A stretch of 25,586 bases of DNA from a virus: positions 1-25,586 of IMG/VR virus record IMGVR_UViG_3300001443_000001; one strand, 5' to 3'. The translations under genes and the position numbers were made by a program. How positions within the stretch are numbered: the stretch's first letter is position 1; every line of letters starts with the position of its first letter. Of this stretch, positions 1,296 through 11,072 are shown one piece after another. The notes beneath the pieces were generated by a model. The model ran no database searches. It was not told the origin of the DNA and was given only the letters and a program-made list of their open reading frames with translations.

Positions 1296-3473
1296 TTAGA
1301 CCAGCACGACCATTTCGTTGCCGTTCGAACCACCCCATCCGGGCGGCGATGGCGGTGGCGTCGGATAGGCGCCGCCGCTGTCGGACGTGAACACCCAGCC
1401 GAGGAAGATCCATTGGCCGGTCGTCATGCGCACGGCGGCCGGATGTTCCTCCGCCTGGAAGCCGAGGTCGGAGCGCCAGAACACGCCCCAGCGCTTGCTG
1501 GAGGCCAGACCGGTGATCGTGCCCGCCGGGATGGAGATGGTCGTGCCGTCGTCCATGTAAGCGTCGAAGTCGCCGATGGTGATCATGTCAGCGTTGGCAG
1601 TGATGGTGACGGCGTCGCGGCCGACCGGGGTCCGAGCGGCGTCTGTGATCTGGGCCGGAATTGTCACGAAGGTTTCAGCGTAAGGTCCTGGCGCACTCGT
1701 CACCAGAGCAACGCCGATCTCGATATAGGCGCCTGTCGGAACGATGGACGTGCTGAACTCCACCGTCTCCCCAGAATTCCAAGGTGTCGGGTCTTCGTTC
1801 ACATAGCCGAGCCACGTCATCGACACTTCCCGCCACCGCAGACGATAGGTGACGTCGGGCCGGTTCGGGTTGCTGATCGTGATGCGGATTCGTGCACCAT
1901 TCTCAGTCGGATACGGAATGGCCGAGACAATGACGGGCTTGGCCAGTTCCTCTGGCTCGGGCCGCACGATGGGCGCCGGCAGTTCGCCCTCTTCCTCCGC
2001 CGGGTTCCAGGCGTCGATATTCACGTCAGCCTGGATGACGTCGAACACGACCTGTGAGGACGCGAAGTCGATTTCGACGTTCATGACCTCGCAGACGACG
2101 TCGGCCATGCTGACCAGTTCGGGGTTCTGGACCCGGATGTAGCGTTGACCGAGGCCGTTCAGGCCGTAGATGCCGGTGCGGATCTGACCCCGGCGCGGGG
2201 CGTTCAGGCGGGTCATCTTGCGCTTGGCCAGCCGCATGGCCTGGGCACGCGAATAGACCCACGTCAGGCCGAGGGGTTCGGAGCGCACACGGCCCGTGTC
2301 GCTGATGTCGCTCTCGTCGCGCCAGACCCCGGCTTCAATCTCGGTGAAGTCGTGGTCCGGCGAGACATAGGACACGATCAGCTCGTTGACCGTCTCCTCG
2401 TCGGCCTGGAAGGCCCGCCAGCTATAGCCATCGATATACTCGCCGGTGAGGGTGAAGGTTGGCGCGAGGTAGCGTCCGACCTTGAGGATCAGATGCCCCT
2501 TGCCGCTGACCGACAGCCAGCCGTCCATGCTGGCGAGGATCGCCGCGCGAATGGCGGCCGGTTCGGTGTTGACCGGATAGTTGCCCGCCAGGCGGTAGCG
2601 CGGTTCGGTCCCGCCTGCCTTGAGGGGCACGGGCTGGTCGCAGTAGTTCGCCTCGGTTGTCAGGTCCGCCAGGACTGGCGCGATGCAGCGGTTCCAGTTG
2701 CGCCCGAACTGCGCCCATTCGAGGTGCACCATCCACACGACCGGGTTGGCGCAGGCCTTCCAGGTCGCCTCATTGGACCGGCTCTGGGACGGATCGCGCC
2801 AGTCGTAACAAACGGGCCGACCGACGACAGAAGGGATGGGCTCGCCGTTCGGGAAGTGACGAGGGAAGCTCTCTTTCGAGCGGTGTTGAGCGAACAGGGC
2901 CAGCGAGGCGACGCCATCGCCGCGCGCGTCAAAAGGCCAGTAGCTGCTGAAGGTGGGGTCGAGGTTAGCGTGGCGTGTCTCGACCGGATTGCCCATGCGT
3001 AGCGAGACGTTGACCAGATCCCCGGTCCCGTAGCGCTCATTCGCCATGCCCGCGACCCAGCCTCCGGCGCCGAGCGTCACCCGGTCGTCGTTTAAATAGA
3101 CCCGGCTGATCGCCGCCAGACGGTCGTCGCACAGGGCGATGACGGCGCCGTATTTATTACCGACCGTCTCGCGCAGCATGTATGGGCCAGACATGCGGCT
3201 GTCCCAGCCCACGGCGCGGACGCGTGGCGGACGGGTCTGCTTGCGGGTGATCTTCTGCCCCTCGGGGTCAGGGACCGACGCCTTGGCGATGGCCGTCAGG
3301 CCCATGCTTATGCCCGCCGTCAGGCCGACATAGGTCACGGCGTAGGCGGTGATGTAGGCGAGGTTCGCCAAGGTGGCAGCGGCCGTGACAGTCAGGGCCG
3401 TCGAACCCGCAAACGTGGCTCCCGCCACCCAGGTCGCAACGGCGGCGGCGGCGGCCGAGATCGGATCAGCCAT
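1296..3473 (-). CDS. Tail tip protein, gpJ-like central fibre
   Basis: This 725-aa protein occupies the place of lambda gpJ, the last large structural gene before the fibre, though it is shorter than the roughly 1,130 aa of lambda gpJ. Residues 1-65 are an Ala/Gly-rich hydrophobic segment. A tip-attachment core follows, with DDRLAAISRVYLNDDRVTL and many aromatic residues. About 505-610 looks like one fibronectin type III domain (VTYRLRWREVSMTWLGYV). The C-terminus ends in a Pro/Gly-rich tail (PTPPPSPPGWGGSNGN). I chose the ATG at 3473 because GGAG lies 9 nt upstream and the ATG overlaps the TGA of the previous gene by 8 nt. An in-frame start 18 nt earlier lacks this support. Tail assignment is solid by context; receptor contact is inferred. 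Confidence 0.75.
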   Translation of the reverse strand: MADPISAAAAAVATWVAGATFAGSTALTVTAAATLANLAYITAYAVTYVGLTAGISMGLTAIAKASVPDPEGQKITRKQTRPPRVRAVGWDSRMSGPYMLRETVGNKYGAVIALCDDRLAAISRVYLNDDRVTLGAGGWVAGMANERYGTGDLVNVSLRMGNPVETRHANLDPTFSSYWPFDARGDGVASLALFAQHRSKESFPRHFPNGEPIPSVVGRPVCYDWRDPSQSRSNEATWKACANPVVWMVHLEWAQFGRNWNRCIAPVLADLTTEANYCDQPVPLKAGGTEPRYRLAGNYPVNTEPAAIRAAILASMDGWLSVSGKGHLILKVGRYLAPTFTLTGEYIDGYSWRAFQADEETVNELIVSYVSPDHDFTEIEAGVWRDESDISDTGRVRSEPLGLTWVYSRAQAMRLAKRKMTRLNAPRRGQIRTGIYGLNGLGQRYIRVQNPELVSMADVVCEVMNVEIDFASSQVVFDVIQADVNIDAWNPAEEEGELPAPIVRPEPEELAKPVIVSAIPYPTENGARIRITISNPNRPDVTYRLRWREVSMTWLGYVNEDPTPWNSGETVEFSTSIVPTGAYIEIGVALVTSAPGPYAETFVTIPAQITDAARTPVGRDAVTITANADMITIGDFDAYMDDGTTISIPAGTITGLASSKRWGVFWRSDLGFQAEEHPAAVRMTTGQWIFLGWVFTSDSGGAYPTPPPSPPGWGGSNGNEMVVLV

Positions 3474-3858
3474 GCGGCACGCTCCACGCAAAGATGATGT
3501 CGTCAGGCTTCAGGGCGTCCAGACCCCGGCTGGATTTCACGGCCCAGCGCTCGCCCAGGCAGATGCCGGCGAGGATCTGTCCGCGATGGCAGAGCGTCCC
3601 TACGTCGCCGCGAACCGCGTTCGTCGCGGGGAGAAGTCCGGCGCGGATCGCGGCCTCGGCCATGATCGCGTGCAGGCCTCCCTTTCGTTTCAGCACCCGT
3701 TCACGCCCAAGGGCCGTGCTGTAGCGGCCGCGCAGCTCGGCGGCGGGGTCGTCACACCCAGTCGCGACCATGACCCAATCCGCGACGGTCAGGGCGCAGT
3801 CCGCCTTACCGTCCACGAAAGGCGCGGCAGCCATGCGCTCCAGAAAGGCGTCCAGCAT
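3466..3858 (-). CDS. DUF6950-type tail protein in the gpK position
   Basis: 130 aa. Motifs include GKADCALTVADWVMVATG near the N-terminus, ELRGRYSTALGRERVLKRKG in the middle, and GDVGTLCHRGQILAGICLG later. I associate this layout (DC...vADW, rGrY, GDv, alGvclG) with DUF6950, found between the distal-tail and tip genes of many alphaproteobacterial phages. Lambda encodes the NlpC/P60 peptidase gpK at this position. Here a conserved Cys is present (C25 in the DCALTV motif), but no clear His catalytic partner follows, so peptidase activity is only possible. The ATG at 3858 lies 1 nt after the preceding stop; the longer upstream frame only reads through that gene. The stop overlaps the tip-protein start by 8 nt, implying coupled translation. 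Confidence 0.65.
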   Translation of the reverse strand: MLDAFLERMAAAPFVDGKADCALTVADWVMVATGCDDPAAELRGRYSTALGRERVLKRKGGLHAIMAEAAIRAGLLPATNAVRGDVGTLCHRGQILAGICLGERWAVKSSRGLDALKPDDIIFAWSVPHG

Positions 3859-3859
3859 C

Positions 3860-4453
3860 CTAGTTGCCGGGCCAGACGATGGTGCTGTCGACGCTGTAGG
3901 ACGCCACCCGCGCACAGAAGGCGTCGGTCGGGCTGCGGCGGCGCTGGTCCGCATCGGTGTAAAAGCCCAGCTGCGGCCGGGTGCGATCGGTGAAGGCCGA
4001 GCCGACCGACAGGCTCACCCGGCGCGTCACCTGACCGCCGGAGCCGTCGCGGTCCACGGCGGGAACGTCGGCCGTGCCCTCCCATAGCCACGCGACGGGG
4101 GCGACGGCCTGCCACTCCTCGTCGAAGAAGATGATGCCGACATGAACCGGGGCGCCCCGCGCTTCCTCGACCTGATCGTCAGCGAGGCGGAAGGTCGTTT
4201 CGTCGGCGCCGTTCAGCGAGAACTCGATGCGTTCCGCTACACCGCCGACCAGCTGCCGCAGCGCCGGCACCTCACCGACCAGGCCGATGCCGAGATAAGT
4301 CCCGCCCTCGATGTCCACGTCGTCAGGCGCGACCTCGAAATCCCCCACGCCCATCCAGGCGCGCACGACGGACGACTTACATTCCATGCGAAAGAAGATC
4401 GACCAGCGCGGTGCGCCGGAAGCCGACAGGATTGCGGCTTGTTCGGGGAGCAT
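3860..4453 (-). CDS. Distal tail (minor tail) protein, probable gpL analogue
   Basis: 197 aa. The protein is rich in beta-strand patterns, with DIEGGTYLGIGLVGEVP, IEFSLNGADETTFRLADDQ and GIIFFDEEWQAVAPVAWLWEG. Near the C-terminus is GFYTDADQRRRSPTDAFC, which I have seen in phage tail proteins preceding the tip gene. I cannot place it in a named family with certainty. Its ATG shares one base with the TGA of the upstream gene (TGATG), and it ends 1 nt before the DUF6950-type gene, so it belongs to the tail-tip block M-L-K-J of lambda-like phages. A hub or ring role at the tail end is inferred from position and not from motifs. Confidence 0.55.
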   Translation of the reverse strand: MLPEQAAILSASGAPRWSIFFRMECKSSVVRAWMGVGDFEVAPDDVDIEGGTYLGIGLVGEVPALRQLVGGVAERIEFSLNGADETTFRLADDQVEEARGAPVHVGIIFFDEEWQAVAPVAWLWEGTADVPAVDRDGSGGQVTRRVSLSVGSAFTDRTRPQLGFYTDADQRRRSPTDAFCARVASYSVDSTIVWPGN

Positions 4454-5109
4454 CAGAAGGCCTCCACCCAGCGGGCGGTAACTTCGACAATCCGCGACGG
4501 GTCTAGGGCGCCGAAGAACTCGTCAGGATTCGCAAGCCTCGACGCCATGCCTACGCGGGCGAAGTACAGCGAGGTGTCTGAGGTGATGGCTTCGCGGAGC
4601 GGCGGGCGGATCTCGGCGAAGCCGTCGCCGACGCGCGCTACCCGATATCTACGCCAGCCGCGCGTTTCGTGGATGATCGAAAGGTTCTCGCCGCCTTGCA
4701 AGACGCCTGAGATCATCGTCAATGGGATGATGGTGGCTCGTAACGGACAGGCGGCCGTGGTGGTGGCGCCGACAGGCACGGTTCCATAGAGCGACCCATC
4801 ACCGAAGGGCGAACCGTCCGAGTGTGGAACCGACGCGGCGGTGAGGTCTCCTGGCACGAATGGGCGCTCAAACGACCATGCCACGATCTGACCGACGCCG
4901 CCGTCAAGGCTGGCCTCAATGGCGCGGGCGGCCTTGATCTGATCTCGCGTGCTCAGCAGGAAGGATTGCTCGCCGACCCAAATGCCGCCGCCGTCTGTGC
5001 GGGCCACGGTCGTGTTGCCGCCGACGTTGACGCCGCCGTTCAAGGCGACGCCTTGCAGCCGCCAGCGCTCCTGTCGGGGCGTCAGTAAATCCCACGGCCA
5101 GTAATCCAT
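4453..5109 (-). CDS. Distal tail protein after the tape measure, probable gpM analogue
   Basis: 218 aa, starting MDYWPWDLLTPRQERWRLQG. The protein is predicted mostly beta, with several Trp/Arg-rich strands (IHETRGWRRYRVARVGDGF, ITSDTSLYFARVGM) and no cysteine-based or hydrolytic motifs. The start overlaps the tape-measure stop by one base (TGATG), and its own stop overlaps the next start the same way. This gives strict stoichiometric coupling typical of tail-tip genes. In lambda the gene after tape measure H is minor tail protein M. I infer an equivalent role at the tail end, but sequence similarity to lambda M is not visible by eye, and the family is unknown to me. Confidence 0.55.
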   Translation of the reverse strand: MDYWPWDLLTPRQERWRLQGVALNGGVNVGGNTTVARTDGGGIWVGEQSFLLSTRDQIKAARAIEASLDGGVGQIVAWSFERPFVPGDLTAASVPHSDGSPFGDGSLYGTVPVGATTTAACPLRATIIPLTMISGVLQGGENLSIIHETRGWRRYRVARVGDGFAEIRPPLREAITSDTSLYFARVGMASRLANPDEFFGALDPSRIVEVTARWVEAF

Positions 5110-7532
5110 CAGGTCGTCCCCAGTCGGCGGTGAGACTGCTGCGCTCCGGCCATCGAGCGCTTGGAAGCGTCAAGAACGGTCTTGCCCATTTGGGCACTGG
5201 CGTTCTGGGCGATGGGTCGAGCGGCGTCCGACGCCAGGGTGATGAAACTGTCGCGCTCGGGGCGGACGATGACCTCATGGAGAATGCGCTGCGAGGCGCC
5301 GCCATATCCCCCGCCGCCTGCCATGCTGAACGACGGCGACGGCATGCCGACCAGACCGCCGAGGGCATAGCCTCTGAGGTTTTGGTGCAAGCCTTCCAGC
5401 CGGGCCGCGCCGATGCGCTTCACCGCGTCAGCCGAGAAGACGTATTCGCCGCGGTGGACCACGCCGGCGGGCTCATTCTTCCCGCCGTCGCCGGTATATC
5501 CGCCATCAGCGAAGCCGAACATGCTGCGGCCGATGCTGATCGCCTTCGACATCCAGTCCGAACCGCCGCCTTTGGCTGCGCGAGCCGCGGCCTTGGGATC
5601 GCCTCCGGTTGAGCCGCCAAATAGCATTCCGGCCAAGGGCTCGATGATCCCTCGGCGGACCGAGATCGACAGCAGGTCGGCCAGGATTTGTTTGGCCACT
5701 TGGGAGAAGGTCTCGCCGAGGTCCTTGCTGTTCATGATCGCGTCCACGATCCCCGAGTTCAAGGCGTCGAGGCCGTTGGCGGCGATGGCCTCGTAGGCCT
5801 GCGAAACCTCAGCCGCGTCCTTAAGCGCTCGATCACGCCACGCGTCCAGCGGCCCCATGTTGGCTCGGTTCGTGGCGTCGGTCTGTGCCTTGAATACGCG
5901 GTCCTGTTCGTTCAGTGCCTGCTGCTGCTGCTCGGGCTTGAGCTTCATGAACGTGGGGTCGCGCTGGAGGTCTTCGCGGGCCTTCTGCTGCGCGGCTGCC
6001 AGAAGCTGAAGCTCAATCGCAAGCCGTTCCTTGGCTGTCCGCGCCGCGCCCGACTGGAGGGATAAAAGGTCCGCCGTGAGGTCCGTCAACAGGCGCTCTT
6101 TGACCAACCGCTCGTCTGCCAGGTCGCGGGCGAGGATGTCGGCCGAAACCCGGTTCTCCAGTTTGGCGGTACGAGTCTGGATCAGCTTGAGCTGGTTGAA
6201 CTCGGCCTGGGTGATGTCCTTGCGGGCGAGGCGGCTCTCTAGTTCCTTGGCCTCGGCCTCGCGCTCCATCTCGACCTGCTTCTTGGCGAGGTCGAAGCGT
6301 TCCTGAACCGTCATCAGCTCATCGTCGGCGATGCCCAGGGCGCGTTGGCGGAGGCGGAAGATTTCTTGCTCGACGCGCTCTGCTCGGCGGGCTTCACGCT
6401 CTTCGGAGCGGTCTACACGTGAGGCTCTTGCCTTTGGAGTGCGTGGCGTTGGCAGCGCGAGAGTGGCCCCGTCCTGACGATCAGTGGTGCGGTTGCTGCG
6501 CTCGATTTCGCGGCGGGCGCGGCGCGCGATCTCAGCATCGGACTCAGCCAGCTCGCGCTCCCAGCCTTGCTGAACAGGCGAAAGCTGGCCGTTCACGCCT
6601 CCGGGACGCCGGTGGGCGTGCGTCACCTTGTTCCGCAGTGACTGGTTCTGATCAGCGAGGCCGCGCTCTGTCTTGTCCTCGTAGTCGCGGAACGCATCCA
6701 TGGCATTGCCGAGGGCTCTGGCCAACTGTGCAACGAGGTTGATCACGCCAACAATGGCCGGCGCCATGTCGATGAAGGCCGACTTCAGGTTCACGTCGAT
6801 GATCTGGGAGAGGATTTCGAATTCGCCCTGCGCCTTACTGGCGCGCTCGATCATGTTTGCGTCCATGACGACGCCGAGTTGCCGGGCTTCGTCCCTGAGG
6901 TCGGCGATATCAACCGCGCCGTCTCGCAGGGCCACAGAAAGCGACCCCAGCCCAAGCGCCTCAGCCACAGCAGCGCGGTCAGCTTCAGACTTCAGGTTCT
7001 TGATGGCGTCCGTGACCTTGTCCAAGGCCTGCTCGGTTGATCCCAGACCCTTCAGTTCGTCGCGGCCCATGTTGAGGAAGGCGAACGCCTTCACCGCGTC
7101 CTTCGACGTACCGGCCCTTGCTTGGGACAGCTTGGTGGCGAACTTGTCGAGTGCTTGGTCTGCATCGCGCGCCTCGCCGCCGGTGGCCTTCGCCACGTAC
7201 CTCCACTCCTGCAAGGCGTCTGTGCCGATGCCGATCCGACGGGCCGAGTTAGCGATGTCATCGGCCATTCTCATGCCTTGGAGGCCCAGGTTGAGGGCAC
7301 CGGCGGCGGCGAGGCCCAAAACTGTGACGAGGCTGGAGACCGCGGCCATCGCACCGGTCGCCATTCGACCGAAAGAGGCCCCGATCCCGCGCGCACTCTT
7401 ATCTGCATCGCGCTCGACCCGGCCCATGGAGGCCTTCAGGTCGTTCTCGGCGCTTTTGATGTCTTCGCCGAGCTTCCGCTTGGTGGCGCGCAACTCAAAC
7501 TCAGCGCTGCCGACGACTGTGCCTTCGGACAT
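5109..7532 (-). CDS. Tail tape measure protein (gpH-like)
   Basis: 807 aa, the largest protein in the window. Residues 1-50 are helical and charged. Residues 57-83 form a hydrophobic, membrane-like segment (MAAVSSLVTVLGLAAAGAL). Long coiled-coil regions rich in Ala, Arg, Glu and Gln follow, and a second hydrophobic Gly-rich part comes near 650-690. The C-terminus carries FADGGYTGDGGKNEPAG and VHRGEYVFSADAVKRIG, the typical ending of lambda-H-type tape measures. I chose the ATG at 7532 because GGAGGTG lies about 5 nt upstream; the frame can start 12 nt earlier without such a site. By the usual ruler relation of about 0.15 nm per residue, the tail would be near 120 nm. The 5' side faces a plus-strand gene, not the chaperones as in lambda. 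Confidence 0.9.
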   Translation of the reverse strand: MSEGTVVGSAEFELRATKRKLGEDIKSAENDLKASMGRVERDADKSARGIGASFGRMATGAMAAVSSLVTVLGLAAAGALNLGLQGMRMADDIANSARRIGIGTDALQEWRYVAKATGGEARDADQALDKFATKLSQARAGTSKDAVKAFAFLNMGRDELKGLGSTEQALDKVTDAIKNLKSEADRAAVAEALGLGSLSVALRDGAVDIADLRDEARQLGVVMDANMIERASKAQGEFEILSQIIDVNLKSAFIDMAPAIVGVINLVAQLARALGNAMDAFRDYEDKTERGLADQNQSLRNKVTHAHRRPGGVNGQLSPVQQGWERELAESDAEIARRARREIERSNRTTDRQDGATLALPTPRTPKARASRVDRSEEREARRAERVEQEIFRLRQRALGIADDELMTVQERFDLAKKQVEMEREAEAKELESRLARKDITQAEFNQLKLIQTRTAKLENRVSADILARDLADERLVKERLLTDLTADLLSLQSGAARTAKERLAIELQLLAAAQQKAREDLQRDPTFMKLKPEQQQQALNEQDRVFKAQTDATNRANMGPLDAWRDRALKDAAEVSQAYEAIAANGLDALNSGIVDAIMNSKDLGETFSQVAKQILADLLSISVRRGIIEPLAGMLFGGSTGGDPKAAARAAKGGGSDWMSKAISIGRSMFGFADGGYTGDGGKNEPAGVVHRGEYVFSADAVKRIGAARLEGLHQNLRGYALGGLVGMPSPSFSMAGGGGYGGASQRILHEVIVRPERDSFITLASDAARPIAQNASAQMGKTVLDASKRSMAGAQQSHRRLGTT

Positions 7533-7570
7533 GGGCACCTCCATAGAAAAAGGCCCGCCGGAGCGAACCT

Positions 7571-7585
7571 GTTCGAATTCTGTTC
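7571..7585. promoter_or_regulatory. Candidate LexA (SOS) box, GTTC-N7-GTTC
   Basis: The sequence reads GTTC, seven bases, GTTC. This is the direct-repeat LexA operator established for alphaproteobacteria such as Caulobacter. It lies in the 91-bp gap between the divergent tape-measure start (7532) and the HEPN-type gene start (7624), 38 bp upstream of the latter. With eight fixed bases, a window this size gives close to one random match over both strands, so the argument rests on its placement in front of an independently transcribed gene. I see no convincing -35/-10 pair around it. Confidence 0.45.
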
Positions 7586-7623
7586 AGGGTGACGGGGACG
7601 AAGTGGCGCCGCAGGGTCGGTGC

Positions 7624-8232
7624 ATGAACTACGCTCAAGCTGAAGCCCCGATGGTGGCCTACTGGACCGAACTCGGCCGCTTTATGCACGAGTTTTCAAG
7701 GGTCGAAGCGCTGCTGGTAAATCTGCTGCGGCACTATTCGGGAGTGACCGATGCAGTCGGTGGCGCTGTCCTGAACGGGTTTCGAGCTGATGCGGCAAAG
7801 GACGCCATCAACCGTGTTCTGGAAGCTACTGGACGGGCAGACGCGGCAAAACGATTGGCTCCGGCGTTCAGCCATTTGTCGATCATCGCGGGAATGCGGA
7901 ACAAAATTGTCCACTGGGGCGCGACCCACCAAGGCGATGATGAGTTCCTCGTTACGAATGCAAAGCTGAATCCGTCAAAAAGCCGGCTGACTGAAATTCG
8001 CATTACAACCGGCGATCTCCACGCCATGAGCCTTGATCTTTATAAGATCGGTATTCATTTCATTTTGGAGGTTCGGTTTGAGCGCGCTCAACCGACGCAG
8101 ACCCTTTCCGAGGTGATCGCGGTCTTAGAGGATGCATGGCTCTATAAACCGCCTCAGCAAGCTCCATCGAAGAATGGGACCCGCGCCCGTCGTCGAGAGC
8201 GACAGAACCGGCCTCCCGCATCTCCCAGGTGA
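7624..8232 (+). CDS. HEPN-type helical protein, candidate RNase or abortive-infection moron
   Basis: 202 aa on the plus strand, inside a minus-strand late operon. The fold looks all-helical. The N-terminal part (YWTELGRFMHEFSRVEALLV) is an amphipathic helix, and residues 91-97 read MRNKIVH, which fits the HEPN motif R-N-x3-H (R92, N93, H97). Many HEPN proteins with this motif are ribonucleases in toxin-antitoxin or abortive-infection systems; others are inactive. The tail from about 175 is basic and low in order (RARRRERQNRPP). The ATG at 7624 starts the recognisable protein, although the Shine-Dalgarno is weak. A GTTC-N7-GTTC box lies just upstream. No antitoxin partner sits beside it in the same direction. 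Function as phage-encoded defence is inference. Confidence 0.65.
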   Translation: MNYAQAEAPMVAYWTELGRFMHEFSRVEALLVNLLRHYSGVTDAVGGAVLNGFRADAAKDAINRVLEATGRADAAKRLAPAFSHLSIIAGMRNKIVHWGATHQGDDEFLVTNAKLNPSKSRLTEIRITTGDLHAMSLDLYKIGIHFILEVRFERAQPTQTLSEVIAVLEDAWLYKPPQQAPSKNGTRARRRERQNRPPASPR

Positions 8233-8251
8233 TGTCTATGTCGTCTTCCAT
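8060..8251 (-). CDS. Small protein of unknown function, antisense to the HEPN 3' end
   Basis: 63 aa, beginning MEDDIDITWEMREAGSVALD, with an acidic first half and a basic, Pro/Ser-rich second half. The evidence for it is its start: AGGAGG lies 8 nt before the ATG, the best Shine-Dalgarno of the block, on the strand of the late operon. It overlaps the last 173 bases of the plus-strand HEPN-type gene tail to tail. Both may be real, with the HEPN gene inserted so that its weakly structured C-terminus reads the complement of this gene. I recognise no family. It could equally be a fragment of a longer gene cut by that insertion. Confidence 0.5.
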   Translation of the reverse strand: MEDDIDITWEMREAGSVALDDGRGSHSSMELAEAVYRAMHPLRPRSPRKGSASVERAQTEPPK

Positions 8252-8295
8252 AGGACAATCCTCCTACGCCTGTACGTCAGTTTCGGGCAGATGGT

Positions 8296-8319
8296 GGGGC
8301 GGCTCCAAAAAGCCGCCCC
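8296..8319. terminator. Perfect 9-bp GC hairpin, probable terminator or attenuator
   Basis: GGGGCGGCT (8296-8304) pairs without mismatch with AGCCGCCCC (8311-8319) across a 6-nt loop. Read on the plus strand it lies 64 nt after the stop of the HEPN-type gene and could end that transcript. Read on the minus strand the loop is TTTTGG, and the hairpin lies between the GGYNN array and the 63-aa gene. Neither side has a following U-tract, so intrinsic termination is uncertain; RNA processing or attenuation is also possible. Confidence 0.5.
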
Positions 8320-8328
8320 GGTTAGACC

Positions 8329-8440
8329 AGCCTTACCAGGCCCCGCACGGACGCACCGCGCCACACCTTGCCTCGCCTAGCCTGCCGCGCCGAACCCCGA
8401 CACGCCACACCTTGCCCCGCCTCACCGCGCCATGCCTGCC
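8329..8440. repeat. 5-nt periodic array, GGYNN on the minus strand
   Basis: On the minus strand this 112-bp stretch splits into consecutive five-base units that start with GGC or GGT, with two free bases: GGCAT, GGCGC, GGTGA, GGCGG, GGCAA, GGTGT and so on. The phase is kept from 8331 to 8382, slips by one base at 8385, then holds to 8436. About 20 of 23 units keep the leading GG; three are decayed. A four-unit block containing GGCAAGGTGTGGCG occurs twice. No reading frame uses it, since the period is five. It lies in the intergenic part of the minus-strand transcript, just before the 8296-8319 hairpin. Confidence 0.8.
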
Positions 8441-8476
8441 ATGTTTTGTCTCGAGAGACCGGCCTCAACAGAGCCG

Positions 8477-8944
8477 TTACGCTGATGCTTGATCCATTGC
8501 CGCAAAGACGCCCGCCAACTCCTTAAGGTCAGCGTATCGGGCTCTGAAGGATGCCAACTCGGCCCAAGCCCGCTCAAGAACCTGTCGACGCAGGTCGGCG
8601 TCGGACATCGCGGTCTGCACCCCGACGTAGGATCGCTCGCCTTTGCGCTCGACAGAGACGAAGGCCCGCGTAGGTTTGGCGGGCTCTACATTCGACCGGC
8701 TCACGTCGATGGTGATGGACCGGATCAGTTCGCCAGCCTGCCCCAAGCGATGCTGCTCGGCGGCGATGCTGTCGTCCCACTCGAAGTGGTCGTGCAGCGA
8801 CGAGTTGGCGCTCCTGGCCCTCTCCAGCACGACAGCAGGGGTCAGTTCGCCTGCCTTGCGCTCTATGCTCGCCAGTTCACGGCCCGCCTTGTCCGCGTCG
8901 ATGCTGACCCGTGAGCCGGGACGCCATGCATATCTCACCGACAT
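8477..8944 (-). CDS. Phage hypothetical protein, 155 aa
   Basis: The ATG at 8944 has GGGGAGGA about 6 nt upstream. The protein carries VVLERARSANSSLHDHFEWDD, a pattern (LeRAR...SPLHdhFeWDD) that I know from conserved phage proteins of unknown function, followed by a helix (IAAEQHRLGQAGELIRSI), a beta part (AFVSVERKGERSYVGV) and a C-terminal helical segment (VLERAWAELASFRARYADL). I see no catalytic motif. It overlaps the upstream 214-aa gene by 10 nt and so belongs to the same small operon. Such genes usually sit in early or accessory phage regions, and its presence within the tail block is unusual. Confidence 0.7.
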   Translation of the reverse strand: MSVRYAWRPGSRVSIDADKAGRELASIERKAGELTPAVVLERARSANSSLHDHFEWDDSIAAEQHRLGQAGELIRSITIDVSRSNVEPAKPTRAFVSVERKGERSYVGVQTAMSDADLRRQVLERAWAELASFRARYADLKELAGVFAAMDQASA

Positions 8945-9579
8945 GGCAGTTCCTCCCCGGTCTTGGCGACATGGAAGCGACCGTTGACCCCGTCCTTCTC
9001 GGGGCGCCAGTCGCCGATGCCGACGCCGAACCCGCCAGCCTCAAACAGGCCAATGACCTGTTCAGCCGACAGGACGTTGGCGTTGTGCTGGACCCGCAGG
9101 ATAGCGCCCCACTGTTCGAACTCGGCGCGGTGCCGAATGTCAGCGGTCCCCATCGCCACCCGAACCATGTCCTCACGCATCGACGGCGCCGGGCCGAGGA
9201 TTTCGACGTACTCGCCGACGATATGGAAGCACTGTCGGGCCATGACCTTCGTCATGCCGCCGGTGCTGGTGACAGCCGTGATCGCCGCCGACTTGAACGC
9301 GACTGCCGGGAAGCCGAAGCGCGCCGTCATGACGTCTTCCTCGGTCGGCTCCTCGGGCATCCCGTCGAGCCAGTAGAGCGTCTCGCAGAAGTCGCGCCAG
9401 GGGTCCTTGGCGACCTTGCCGGTTGCAGCCTTCTTCATCTGCTTGTCGAGCATGGCCTTCTTGGCCTTCGCGGACCAAGCATGGCAGATCAGGCCGCTGT
9501 CCCCGATGATCGGGATGTCCAGCGTCTGGATGTTCATCGGCGGCAGTTCGACTGCCGTGGATTTCGGTGCGGCGGCCAT
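8935..9579 (-). CDS. Conserved phage protein, 214 aa, unknown function
   Basis: After a short N-terminal leader, the sequence runs DIPIIGDSGLICHAWSAKAK, KKAMLDKQMKKAATGK, RFGFPAVAFKSAAITAV, MREDMVRVAMGTADIRHRAE, and ends GFGVGIGDWRPEKDGVNGRF. I recognise this set of motifs from proteins common in siphophages of Proteobacteria, but no function is known to me. The Gly-rich ending and paired beta strands suggest a compact alpha/beta protein. The ATG at 9579 is preferred because its A is the last base of the preceding TAA (TAATG); a TTG six bases earlier is in frame but less likely. It overlaps the following 155-aa gene by 10 nt. Confidence 0.75.
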   Translation of the reverse strand: MAAAPKSTAVELPPMNIQTLDIPIIGDSGLICHAWSAKAKKAMLDKQMKKAATGKVAKDPWRDFCETLYWLDGMPEEPTEEDVMTARFGFPAVAFKSAAITAVTSTGGMTKVMARQCFHIVGEYVEILGPAPSMREDMVRVAMGTADIRHRAEFEQWGAILRVQHNANVLSAEQVIGLFEAGGFGVGIGDWRPEKDGVNGRFHVAKTGEELPCR

Positions 9580-9962
9580 TACCAAGCCTCTCCGACTTGA
9601 GCCCAGCGGCAGTTCACCGGCCCCACCTTGTCTCGCCCCTCTTGGTAGGAGCCCATCAAGAGCGAGCGACGGACCCAGCCTGGACGATCAGGGTCCGGCT
9701 CCTCTTGACGACGCTCGAACCCAACGGCCGGGCGCTTACTGTGGACGCCGCCGATGGCGTAGCAGAGTTCGTGCGCTTCCCAGCCGTCCGCCTTGGCGCG
9801 CTCAAGCACCGGCGCAAAGTCCGGATGGCTGGAGATGAGGCCCTCGGCGAACCGCTCCCAAGCAGTTTGCTCTTTCGCGACCTCGATGGCGTGAACGGCT
9901 ACAGGGGCGGCGGCTGCTGCGATGGCCGGGACGGCGCCGAACAAGAGGCGGCGGCTCAGCAT
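9579..9962 (-). CDS. Small exported protein with Tat-like signal
   Basis: 127 aa. Residues 1-25 read MLSRRLLFGAVPAIAAAAAP and end AVHA, with a twin-arginine-like SRRLLF start, an Ala-rich hydrophobic core and an A-x-A cleavage site near residue 25. The mature part of about 100 aa has WERFAEGLISSHPDFAPVLER and KADGWEAHELCYAIGG, with one Cys before cleavage-independent regions and several Trp. I do not recognise a domain. Its ATG overlaps the stop of the 56-aa gene by 7 nt, and its stop overlaps the next start by one base, so it is translated as part of a coupled four-gene set. A periplasmic role, for instance in excluding other phages, is possible but only inferred. Confidence 0.65.
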   Translation of the reverse strand: MLSRRLLFGAVPAIAAAAAPVAVHAIEVAKEQTAWERFAEGLISSHPDFAPVLERAKADGWEAHELCYAIGGVHSKRPAVGFERRQEEPDPDRPGWVRRSLLMGSYQEGRDKVGPVNCRWAQVGEAW

Positions 9963-10126
9963 GCGACCAGCTCCCGAGCGGGGGCCGGGCGAACCGGAGC
10001 AGGGCGAGCGATAACGGGGGCGGCGCCGCGACCGTTGAAGAAGCGGGCGAGGTCGCCGAGCGGGTAGGGCGCAGGCACCCAGGTTGGGTTACGCCGGGCA
10101 GGCGTGATAGAAGGCGCGTAGGCCAT
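9956..10126 (-). CDS. 56-aa Pro/Arg-rich small protein, first gene of the accessory set
   Basis: The ATG at 10126 is preceded by GGAGA at a spacing of 8, and the TGA overlaps the ATG of the Tat-like gene by 7 nt (ATGCTGA). The protein begins MAYAPSITPARRNPTWVPAP, continues with YPLGDLARFFNGRG, and ends in a Pro/Ala/Arg run. No domain is recognisable. The good ribosome site and tight overlap make it a real gene and not a shadow. It is the promoter-proximal gene of the minus-strand set that runs to 8477, with its 5' side facing the palindrome at 10196-10245. Confidence 0.6.
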   Translation of the reverse strand: MAYAPSITPARRNPTWVPAPYPLGDLARFFNGRGAAPVIARPAPVRPAPARELVAC

Positions 10127-10180
10127 GACCAGATCTCCGGGATCGGTTGCGGTTTAGGGCCGTTGCGAGGGTTGCCGCCC

Positions 10181-10209
10181 TTGCTTCGGTCCGTCCTTTC
10201 TGGCATTAG
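10181..10209 (+). promoter_or_regulatory. Weak candidate promoter for a leaderless RHH transcript
   Basis: TTGCTT (10181-10186), a 17-bp spacer and CATTAG (10204-10209) stand at the right distance for a sigma-70-type promoter. A start of transcription about 7 bp after the -10 would fall at or next to the ATG at 10216. That fits the absence of any Shine-Dalgarno before this ATG; leaderless messages are common in alphaproteobacteria. The -10 match is poor. Confidence 0.25.
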
Positions 10210-10245
10210 AAACGCATGACGTCAAGCGTTTCTAACATCAGAAAG
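10196..10245. promoter_or_regulatory. 50-bp palindrome over the RHH start codon, candidate operator
   Basis: The centre of symmetry is between 10220 and 10221. TGACGTCA (10217-10224) is a perfect palindrome. TTAGAAACGC (10206-10215) matches GCGTTTCTAA (10226-10235) exactly, and CTTTCTG (10196-10202) matches CAGAAAG (10239-10245) exactly. In all, 21 of 25 base pairs are symmetrical; the mismatches are one at 10216/10225 and three at 10203-10205/10236-10238. It covers the start codon of the ribbon-helix-helix gene and lies 70 bp upstream of the divergent accessory operon. Repressor binding by the RHH dimer, as an autoregulator and possible switch for both sides, is the simplest reading. Confidence 0.7.
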
Positions 10246-10431
10246 AAGATTGGTCGTCCTGCGATCAACGCCGTCCCGCTTTCAGTGCGGGTGCCGCCCG
10301 ATTTGATCGCAGCGGTAGACGCCTTCATTTTAGAGCGCGTTGCCTACGGTGAGAGCTTGTCTCGGCCCGAGGCCGTGCGCCGACTTGCCACCGAAGCGCT
10401 AGAGAAAATGGGCCTGTATCAGCCTAAATAA
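10216..10431 (+). CDS. Ribbon-helix-helix DNA-binding protein
   Basis: 71 aa. PLSVRVPPDLIAAVDAFILE (21-40) gives the beta strand and first helix, and LSRPEAVRRLATEALEKMG (49-66 or so) the second helix. This is the CopG/Arc-type fold that binds DNA as a dimer. A Lys/Arg-rich N-terminal arm (NIRKKIGRP) precedes it. It is coded on the plus strand against all neighbours and overlaps the zinc-ribbon gene tail to tail by 13 nt. The ATG lies inside the 50-bp palindrome and has no Shine-Dalgarno, which suggests a leaderless message under self-repression. It could be a lone antitoxin relative, but no toxin gene follows it on this strand. Confidence 0.75.
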   Translation: MTSSVSNIRKKIGRPAINAVPLSVRVPPDLIAAVDAFILERVAYGESLSRPEAVRRLATEALEKMGLYQPK

Positions 10432-10730
10432 TGATCGGCTGATCCTGACGCCTGGGGCGCGGGAACTTCGAAACGGCTGCCGCAAAACCGGCAGACCTGG
10501 GCCTCGGCCTTCACGATCTCCGCGCACTGCGGACACTTCTTGGTGTCGCCGGTCCGTAGGGATTGCTGGTCGATAGCGGCCTGATCCTTCTTCAGCATCA
10601 AGGCGCAGGGCAGGGCGACGATGAACAGCAAGGCCCCGAATATCCACCAGCCGATGAAGCTGCGGCCCTTGCCGCTGGCGATGGCGGCGGGGATCAGGCC
10701 GATCAGCACCGCGATGATTAGGATTTCCAT
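10419..10730 (-). CDS. Zinc-ribbon inner-membrane protein
   Basis: 103 aa. Two membrane helices are visible: residues 2-19 (EILIIAVLIGLIPAAIAS) and about 25-46 (FIGWWIFGALLFIVALP). A cytoplasmic zinc ribbon follows, with CPQC (66-69) and CRFC (80-83). The start is the ATG at 10730, with GGAGGGG about 6 nt upstream. Homologues of this layout are common in bacteria and phages without known function. It follows the second chaperone frame by 30 nt on the same strand, so it may be co-transcribed with the tail genes as a moron. Superinfection exclusion would fit a small phage membrane protein but is only a guess. Confidence 0.7.
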   Translation of the reverse strand: MEILIIAVLIGLIPAAIASGKGRSFIGWWIFGALLFIVALPCALMLKKDQAAIDQQSLRTGDTKKCPQCAEIVKAEAQVCRFCGSRFEVPAPQASGSADHYLG

Positions 10731-10760
10731 GATTGCCCCCTCCAAGTTTGAGGCGCGAGG

Positions 10761-11072
10761 CTATGGCGCCTCACTCAGCGGCTCAACCTCGAGCCCCCAA
10801 TCGGTCGCCATGCGGTGGAACATCGCCGCCGCCATCGCTTCGGCTTCCTTCGGATCAGGCGCGTCCAGCATCGACTTGATGTAGCTGGCCGGACCTTGGA
10901 GACGTTCCTCGCGGGCAAAGCGCTCGCCGAACCATCCGGCGTAGAGCGAGGCTTCGATCTGGGCCCGGCCGAGTGATTGGAGCCGCAGCGCCAGTCGATA
11001 AGGTGTCAGGTGCCAGAACTCTGTCTCCGTGACCCCAGCTTTCAGGGCCGCCCGAAAATGCGCCTCAACCAC
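10761..11072 (-). CDS. Tail assembly chaperone, second frame (gpT-like)
   Basis: 103 aa from a GTG at 11072. Key part: ALKAGVTETEFWHLTPYRLA, the 'FW.LTP.el' motif typical of phage tail assembly chaperones that follow the G protein, and then a helical segment ending in AEAMAAAMFHRMATDWG. It overlaps the preceding frame by 31 nt and lies in the -1 frame relative to it, as lambda T does to G. The -1 frame stays open upstream of the GTG, so either ribosomal frameshifting or re-initiation at the GTG could express it. A GGAAGAG sits too far upstream (about 12 nt) to be a clear ribosome site. Confidence 0.7.
   Translation of the reverse strand: MVEAHFRAALKAGVTETEFWHLTPYRLALRLQSLGRAQIEASLYAGWFGERFAREERLQGPASYIKSMLDAPDPKEAEAMAAAMFHRMATDWGLEVEPLSEAP

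Follow-up and report, generated by a model that had tools for sequence, protein, structure and literature searches.

In Staphylococcus aureus, the prophage HEPN RNase Tha, which carries the motif RNSIMH, is activated by tail proteins and is inhibited by Ith, the product of a 201-nt overlapping antisense gene (PMC11087260). The 83-aa tail assembly blocker Tab of Pseudomonas phage JBD26 is encoded on the minus strand and has its own promoter, and its counterpart anti-Tab is produced from the late operon (PMC10884400). Anti-phage genes also accumulate in the hotspots of P2 and P4, which are small, high-turnover loci with diverse anti-phage systems (PMC9122126). The LexA consensus of alphaproteobacteria is GTTC-N7-GTTC, as cited in PMC8565304.

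The locus described here lies in a 25,586-base viral contig from IMG/VR, which is referred to as a whole as the window. This 25.6-kb fragment contains no lysogeny genes, and its minus strand encodes structural genes: terminase, protease, head morphogenesis, connectors, tape measure, distal tail, and fibre. The closest phage terminases are those of Rhizobium, Paracoccus, and Erythrobacter phages, suggesting that the host is likely an alphaproteobacterium. As in the Tha/Ith system, a probable prophage HEPN protein with an R-N-x3-H motif (P0001) is encoded by a gene that is overlapped by a small antisense gene (192 nt), an architecture that, by analogy, may likewise be linked to the lytic switch. 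The likeness is one of layout alone: Tha is a 301-aa protein with a C-terminal HEPN domain and is encoded in the cI operon near the integrase, whereas P0001 has 202 aa and is encoded within the tail operon, where the small open reading frame (ORF) is in late sense. The window also resembles Tab/anti-Tab, in that the putative defence gene lies opposite the late operon and the putative counter-gene within it; the separate promoter is a documented property of Tab and a predicted one of P0001. However, Tab is encoded between terminase genes and is not a HEPN protein, and the overlap of the small ORF with the 3′ end of the cargo gene belongs to the window. Finally, the P2/P4 hotspots and the slot that holds P0001 both place anti-phage cargo between two conserved phage genes; the former adjoin cos, whereas the latter precedes the tape measure gene inside the tail operon and has a shared element and a terminator-like hairpin (Table 1).

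Table 1. Features of the P0001 locus in the window (25,586 bp; positions count from its first base).
Feature	Position	Strand	Basis or remark
Tail tape measure protein, anchoring the slot on its right	5109..7532	-	phrog_24 E 9e-29, phrog_339 E 1e-23
Accessory slot, tail chaperone to tape measure	7533..10760	.	variable cargo and variable length in relatives
Terminator-like hairpin facing the late operon, just ahead of the tape measure ribosome-binding site	7551..7570	-	RNA features; kept in relatives
25-bp element, GTTCGARTTCTGTTCAGGGTGACGG / GTTCGAATTCTGTTCAGGGTGACGG; first 15 bases = GTTC-N7-GTTC	7571..7595	+	near-identical in 10 phage cassettes
GCAGGGT, at constant spacing after the element	7611..7617	+	column counts, 10 cassettes
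HEPN-type protein P0001, 202 aa	7624..8232	+	intact ORF and translation; antisense to the late operon
Codons for R92-N93-K-I-V-H97 (R-x4-H HEPN motif)	7897..7914	+	invariance in homologues
Small late-sense ORF, 63 aa (192 nt), candidate inhibitor	8060..8251	-	tail-to-tail overlap with last 173 bp of P0001; L001 homologue in same place
AGGAGG ribosome-binding site of the small ORF	8260..8265	-	sequence, before ATG
Strong hairpin GGGGCGGC..GCCGCCCC, separating the small ORF from the late genes upstream	8296..8319	.	late-strand RNA fold -21.9 kcal/mol, z -3.4
Tail assembly chaperone-like protein, anchoring the slot on its left	10761..11072	-	conserved motif match; weak Phage_TAC_6

P0001 is a probable HEPN-type protein

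The hallmark of the HEPN superfamily is an R-x4-6-H motif, commonly with a polar residue after the arginine. The sequence-only reading of this DNA had described an intact 202-aa ORF running backwards relative to the tail operon, with R-N-x3-H at residues 92-97, and this description was borne out; a GTG at 7603 is an alternative start that would lengthen the protein to 209 aa. The motif R92-N-K-I-V-H97 agrees with the superfamily pattern, and R92, N93, I95, V96, H97, W98, and G99 are invariant in the alignment of three homologues, down to 26% identity. Homologues were found in L001 (43% identity) and in Pseudomonas phages D14C/PP9W2 (26.5% identity), whose protein also occurs in many IMG/VR contigs, and none was detected in the species-genome scans or in plasmids. 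Both the D14C and the L001 homologues are antisense among late genes, the former after the tape measure gene and the latter adjoining a head-tail adaptor gene. In L003, a separate sequence, CTGGAAGGTTGTACAG (5766-5781), lies about 90 bp ahead of the Pseudomonas phage homologue and has the form CTG-N10-CAG (gammaproteobacterial LexA-like), which would arise by chance in a gap of that size about 3% of the time.

The earlier assignment of P0001 to the HEPN type stands with respect to the invariant motif and a resemblance in fold, and finds no counterpart among curated profiles: Pfam, NCBIfam, and PADLOC yielded zero HEPN matches, an absence that is compatible with HEPN membership. A match to phrog_26374 (function unknown) was obtained at E 4e-6, while a TetR_C_36 match at E 0.11 was dismissed as chance. 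The AlphaFold model, built from a three-sequence input, is all-helical, with the motif closing helix 72-95, and is of low confidence (pLDDT 63, pTM 0.58). A Foldseek search of this model against the PDB returned many unrelated helical bundles and nothing significant. In a second-look alignment, the best-aligning solved HEPN protein for the weak model was HepS of the Salmonella prophage Gifsy-1 (PDB 9oij; Z 7.3, rmsd 3.4 over 107), and the HepT toxins 6m6w and 5yep aligned at Z 5.8 and 5.7; these scores fall inside the range of unrelated bundles, among which Z values of about 7 are common. HepS, like P0001, is a prophage HEPN-type protein, of about 190 aa, but no sequence similarity between the two was found. 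Thus, the invariant R-N-x-I-V-H motif, together with the fold resemblance of a weak model, supports a HEPN identity of P0001, which is probable.

A near-invariant 25-bp element precedes reversed cargo genes

As previously noted from the sequence, a GTTC-N7-GTTC box (GTTCGAATTCTGTTC, 7571-7585) is located 38 bp (7586-7623) before the ATG of P0001. The gap between P0001 and the tape measure gene has the 91 bp first given for it when the conserved MSEGTVVGSAEFELRAT start at 7532 is used for the tape measure, and shrinks to 79 bp with a start at 7544. The box occurs once within the window, against an expectation of 0.80 (mean of shuffles) or 0.55 (base composition), and its expectation for the P0001 gap is about 0.14%, in approximate agreement with the earlier estimates of close to one per window and 0.3% per 100-bp gap. 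Chance is more strongly excluded by the recurrence of the entire 25 bp in nine other phages, each time heading a reversed cargo gene.

An IMG/VR scan with GTTCN7GTTCAGGGTGACGG returned ten loci, including a chance match in coding sequence (L043) and a second record of the L041 phage (L045). A second scan, in which the first GTTC was not demanded, recovered the nine cassettes again, along with unrelated coding sequence, and all nine, as well as the window, kept GTTCGA at this position. As element loci, L043 and L053-L062 were dismissed as chance matches or as lying inside unrelated coding sequence. Variants that depart from the scan patterns would be missed, since much of the element was prescribed in each scan. 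Across the ten cassettes, 24 of the 25 positions are invariant, the sole exception being an A/G within the N7 spacer; besides the GTTC half-sites, the seven spacer bases and the ten following bases are therefore near-fixed.

A reversed cargo gene stands behind the element in all ten cassettes, and five of these genes carry a HEPN motif. The cargo comprises P0001 itself, three MtlR-like proteins with RNxFAH (L041, L050, and L051), a protein with RDALAH (L048), a two-member family of about 120 aa (L046 and L047), two other small proteins (L044 and L052), and one protein truncated where the contig ends (L049). In L044 and L047, the cassette is located after the tape measure gene and has a different left flank, and conservation still begins at the first GTTC. 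No recognisable sigma-70 promoter was found at the element, and searches with the combined sequence of hairpin and element returned generic terminators only in phages and nothing in plasmids. A reading of GTTCGAATTC as a tRNA T-loop or attachment site was dropped, as the matching stem is absent. In L052, a transposase gene follows the first tape measure codons, and the tape measure gene seems to be interrupted past its conserved N-terminus.

A cargo hotspot between the chaperone and tape measure genes

Among the 44 tape-measure relatives surveyed, the interval between these two genes is a hotspot of cargo turnover. Its length is 87 bp in L071 and more than 4 kb in L063, and it displays the variable cargo between two conserved flanks that is characteristic of anti-phage hotspots, in which such cargo measures 1-5 kb. 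The slot contents include a KAP-like NTPase (KAP/PDC-S20) with a RES toxin and an Xre-like antitoxin in L038, a reversed MtlR-like HEPN gene with HigB (HigBA type) in L041, a PD-T4-10_B homologue in L067, a DUF3800 protein in L068, GmrSD/NsnA with HEPN_MAE_28990 and Dcm in L073, Dcm with a HATPase restriction enzyme in L076, and an HTH-M78 protein in L106; in L040, a lipoprotein-like gene lies upstream of the tape measure gene. Some slot cargo is without a known defence role, which counts against a defence reading. Relatives found via the distal tail protein lack P0001 and have other genes upstream of the tape measure gene. The relatives are temperate phages, as shown by an integrase in 9 of 15 related records; a Peptidase_S24 match was obtained in five. 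In L073, the GmrSD-type, HEPN_MAE_28990, and C-5 cytosine methylase genes are found together (1924-4915) and possibly form one composite restriction-like system.

The hairpin directly before the tape measure gene (GGCTCGCTYCGGCGGGCCTTTTT on the late strand), or an analogue of it, was detected by a simple pattern in 31 of 41 related loci. The presence of a hairpin with a T run inside the late operon of most relatives (L063-L106) implies that tape measure expression is subject to antitermination or attenuation. Elsewhere in the window's slot, two more late-sense cargo ORFs occupy 8477-9585 (minus strand), one of which matches phrog_4652 (unknown function; E 8e-22), and a 108-aa zinc-ribbon protein (UPF0547) is encoded immediately after the tail chaperone gene (10419-10745, minus strand). 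A run of five-base repeats of the GGC(R)NGG type (GGCGCGGTGAGGCGGGGCAAGGTGTGGCG on the late strand) spans 8330-8440 and separates the HEPN cassette from the late gene upstream of it.

Small late-sense ORFs overlap the HEPN genes

A small late-sense ORF (43-70 aa) overlaps the 3′ end of every HEPN cargo gene examined (7/7), two of which are homologues without the element. The overlaps outside the window, six in number, measure 128 bp in L001, 71 bp in L003, 56 bp in L041, 4 bp in L048, 95 bp in L050, and 56 bp in L051. In shuffle tests, the small ORF of the window was related to that of L001 (0/500), those of L041, L050, L051, and L048 were linked mutually (at most 2/500), and that of L003 bridged both groups (0/500 against L051, 2/500 against L050, and 5/500 against the window). 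Compared directly, the small ORF of the window showed no pairwise significance with those of L041, L050, and L051, to which it is connected through L003 only. A shared sequence, AGGAGATCACCATGACTGAG, is common to the small ORFs of L048, L050, and L051. The overlap with the HEPN frame partly confounds the similarity between the window and L001, although conservation there is higher in the small ORF (19 of 42 residues) than in the HEPN tail (roughly one third, as judged by eye). None of the four non-HEPN element cassettes (L044, L046, L047, and L052) yielded a significant small-ORF match.

Proposed role of P0001 and alternative explanations

On balance, we lean towards the view that P0001 is the product of an anti-phage gene of HEPN ribonuclease type (a 'moron'), which the prophage carries and which is on in lysogeny and suppressed at induction. 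The 25-bp element would provide the cargo with a promoter/operator of its own that is read in the lysogen, and the HEPN protein would remain latent until triggered by an infecting phage, plausibly via a structural protein, whereupon it would cleave RNA and the infected cell would stop. Upon induction of its own prophage, late transcription of the opposite strand would suppress the HEPN gene, and the co-expressed 63-aa protein would neutralise the HEPN protein, such that the phage would be spared self-attack. Lysogenic defence with shut-off at induction is favoured because Tha/Ith and Tab/anti-Tab each show half of this arrangement and the window combines both layouts; a gene that is on in lysogeny and off at induction also fits the antisense position and the overlapping late-sense small ORF. 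The opposite timing had been put forward from the sequence, namely a damage-induced RNase that acts on host or competitor translation at induction, and is not supported, given that anti-phage systems occupy this slot in temperate relatives.

More tentatively, temperate phages, probably of alphaproteobacteria, might share a recurrent 'defence socket' in their tail operons, in which a fixed 25-bp launch element serves interchangeable backward cargo, and unrelated HEPN RNases have independently adopted a tail-to-tail overlap with a small late-sense gene whose product disarms them upon induction; the switch for self-immunity would then be the antisense placement itself, convergent with Tha/Ith and Tab/anti-Tab. 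If true, this would reveal how prophages can equip their hosts with weapons while sparing their own lytic growth, through gene orientation and a small overlapping protein, and the conserved element and anchor gene would provide a handle for harvesting undescribed defence genes from metagenomic phages.

Each part of the favoured model has a competing explanation. The 25 bp may be a boundary, recombination, or repeat-derived sequence for cargo exchange and not a promoter, given that cassettes with completely different cargo share it, that it stands at another gene junction with an unrelated left flank in L044 and L047, and that it has no sigma-70 match. However, each cassette holds a single copy, without a counterpart on the other side of the cargo, and the element is invariably on the 5′ side of the cargo gene, so this explanation appears unlikely. 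A type II-like addiction module, in which a HEPN toxin and an overlapping small antitoxin stabilise the prophage and do not defend it, would account for the small ORF beside each HEPN cargo gene examined and has parallels in the toxin-antitoxin pairs (HigBA and RES/Xre) in the same slot of relatives. Such a role is improbable for genes that are convergent and not co-operonic, as the antitoxin would require late-strand expression in the lysogen, and the remaining slot cargo is mostly anti-phage. It is more doubtful still that P0001 is a non-catalytic, MtlR-type helical regulator merely retaining an RNxxxH-like motif: the same-place genes in L041, L050, and L051 are indeed MtlR-like (Pfam E down to 1e-4; 3brj E 9e-6), but R, N, and H are invariant within P0001's own family, and hhalign detected no relationship between this family and the MtlR-like one (probability 0.5%). 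The model of the MtlR-like protein itself was unusable (pLDDT 42).

With respect to the control of P0001, the sequence-only reading had identified the box as a LexA operator, through which host LexA would repress P0001 and DNA damage would turn on the HEPN RNase during prophage induction. The match to the alphaproteobacterial consensus is exact and conserved, the first GTTC was retained in 10/10 cassettes though one scan left it free, and the only variable base falls in the N7 spacer. A plain LexA operator, however, constrains its half-sites and leaves the spacer and flanks free, whereas the box is the left part of a 25-bp fixed element that heads non-HEPN cargo as well. Conservation of the box before homologues, which the operator reading had called for, does not extend to the closest homologue, as GTTC-N7-GTTC is absent across the entire record of L001. 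Moreover, late antisense transcription would counter expression at induction, and the host is probably, not certainly, an alphaproteobacterium. SOS control of P0001 is thus unproven and less likely than a cargo-specific element, and we consider LexA repression of this gene rather improbable. LexA may nevertheless act on such phages, since GTTC-N7-GTTC with other spacers occurs in some element-bearing phages, and in two of them it precedes early-type genes; the cargo element is more specific. These two sites, GTTCTTATTTCGTTC at L108:477 and GTTCTCTTTTCGTTC at L109:834, each followed by AGGAGTCCGCCYCGGGTCGG and located upstream of an early-type gene, are more plausible as ordinary LexA-type sites than the cargo element is.
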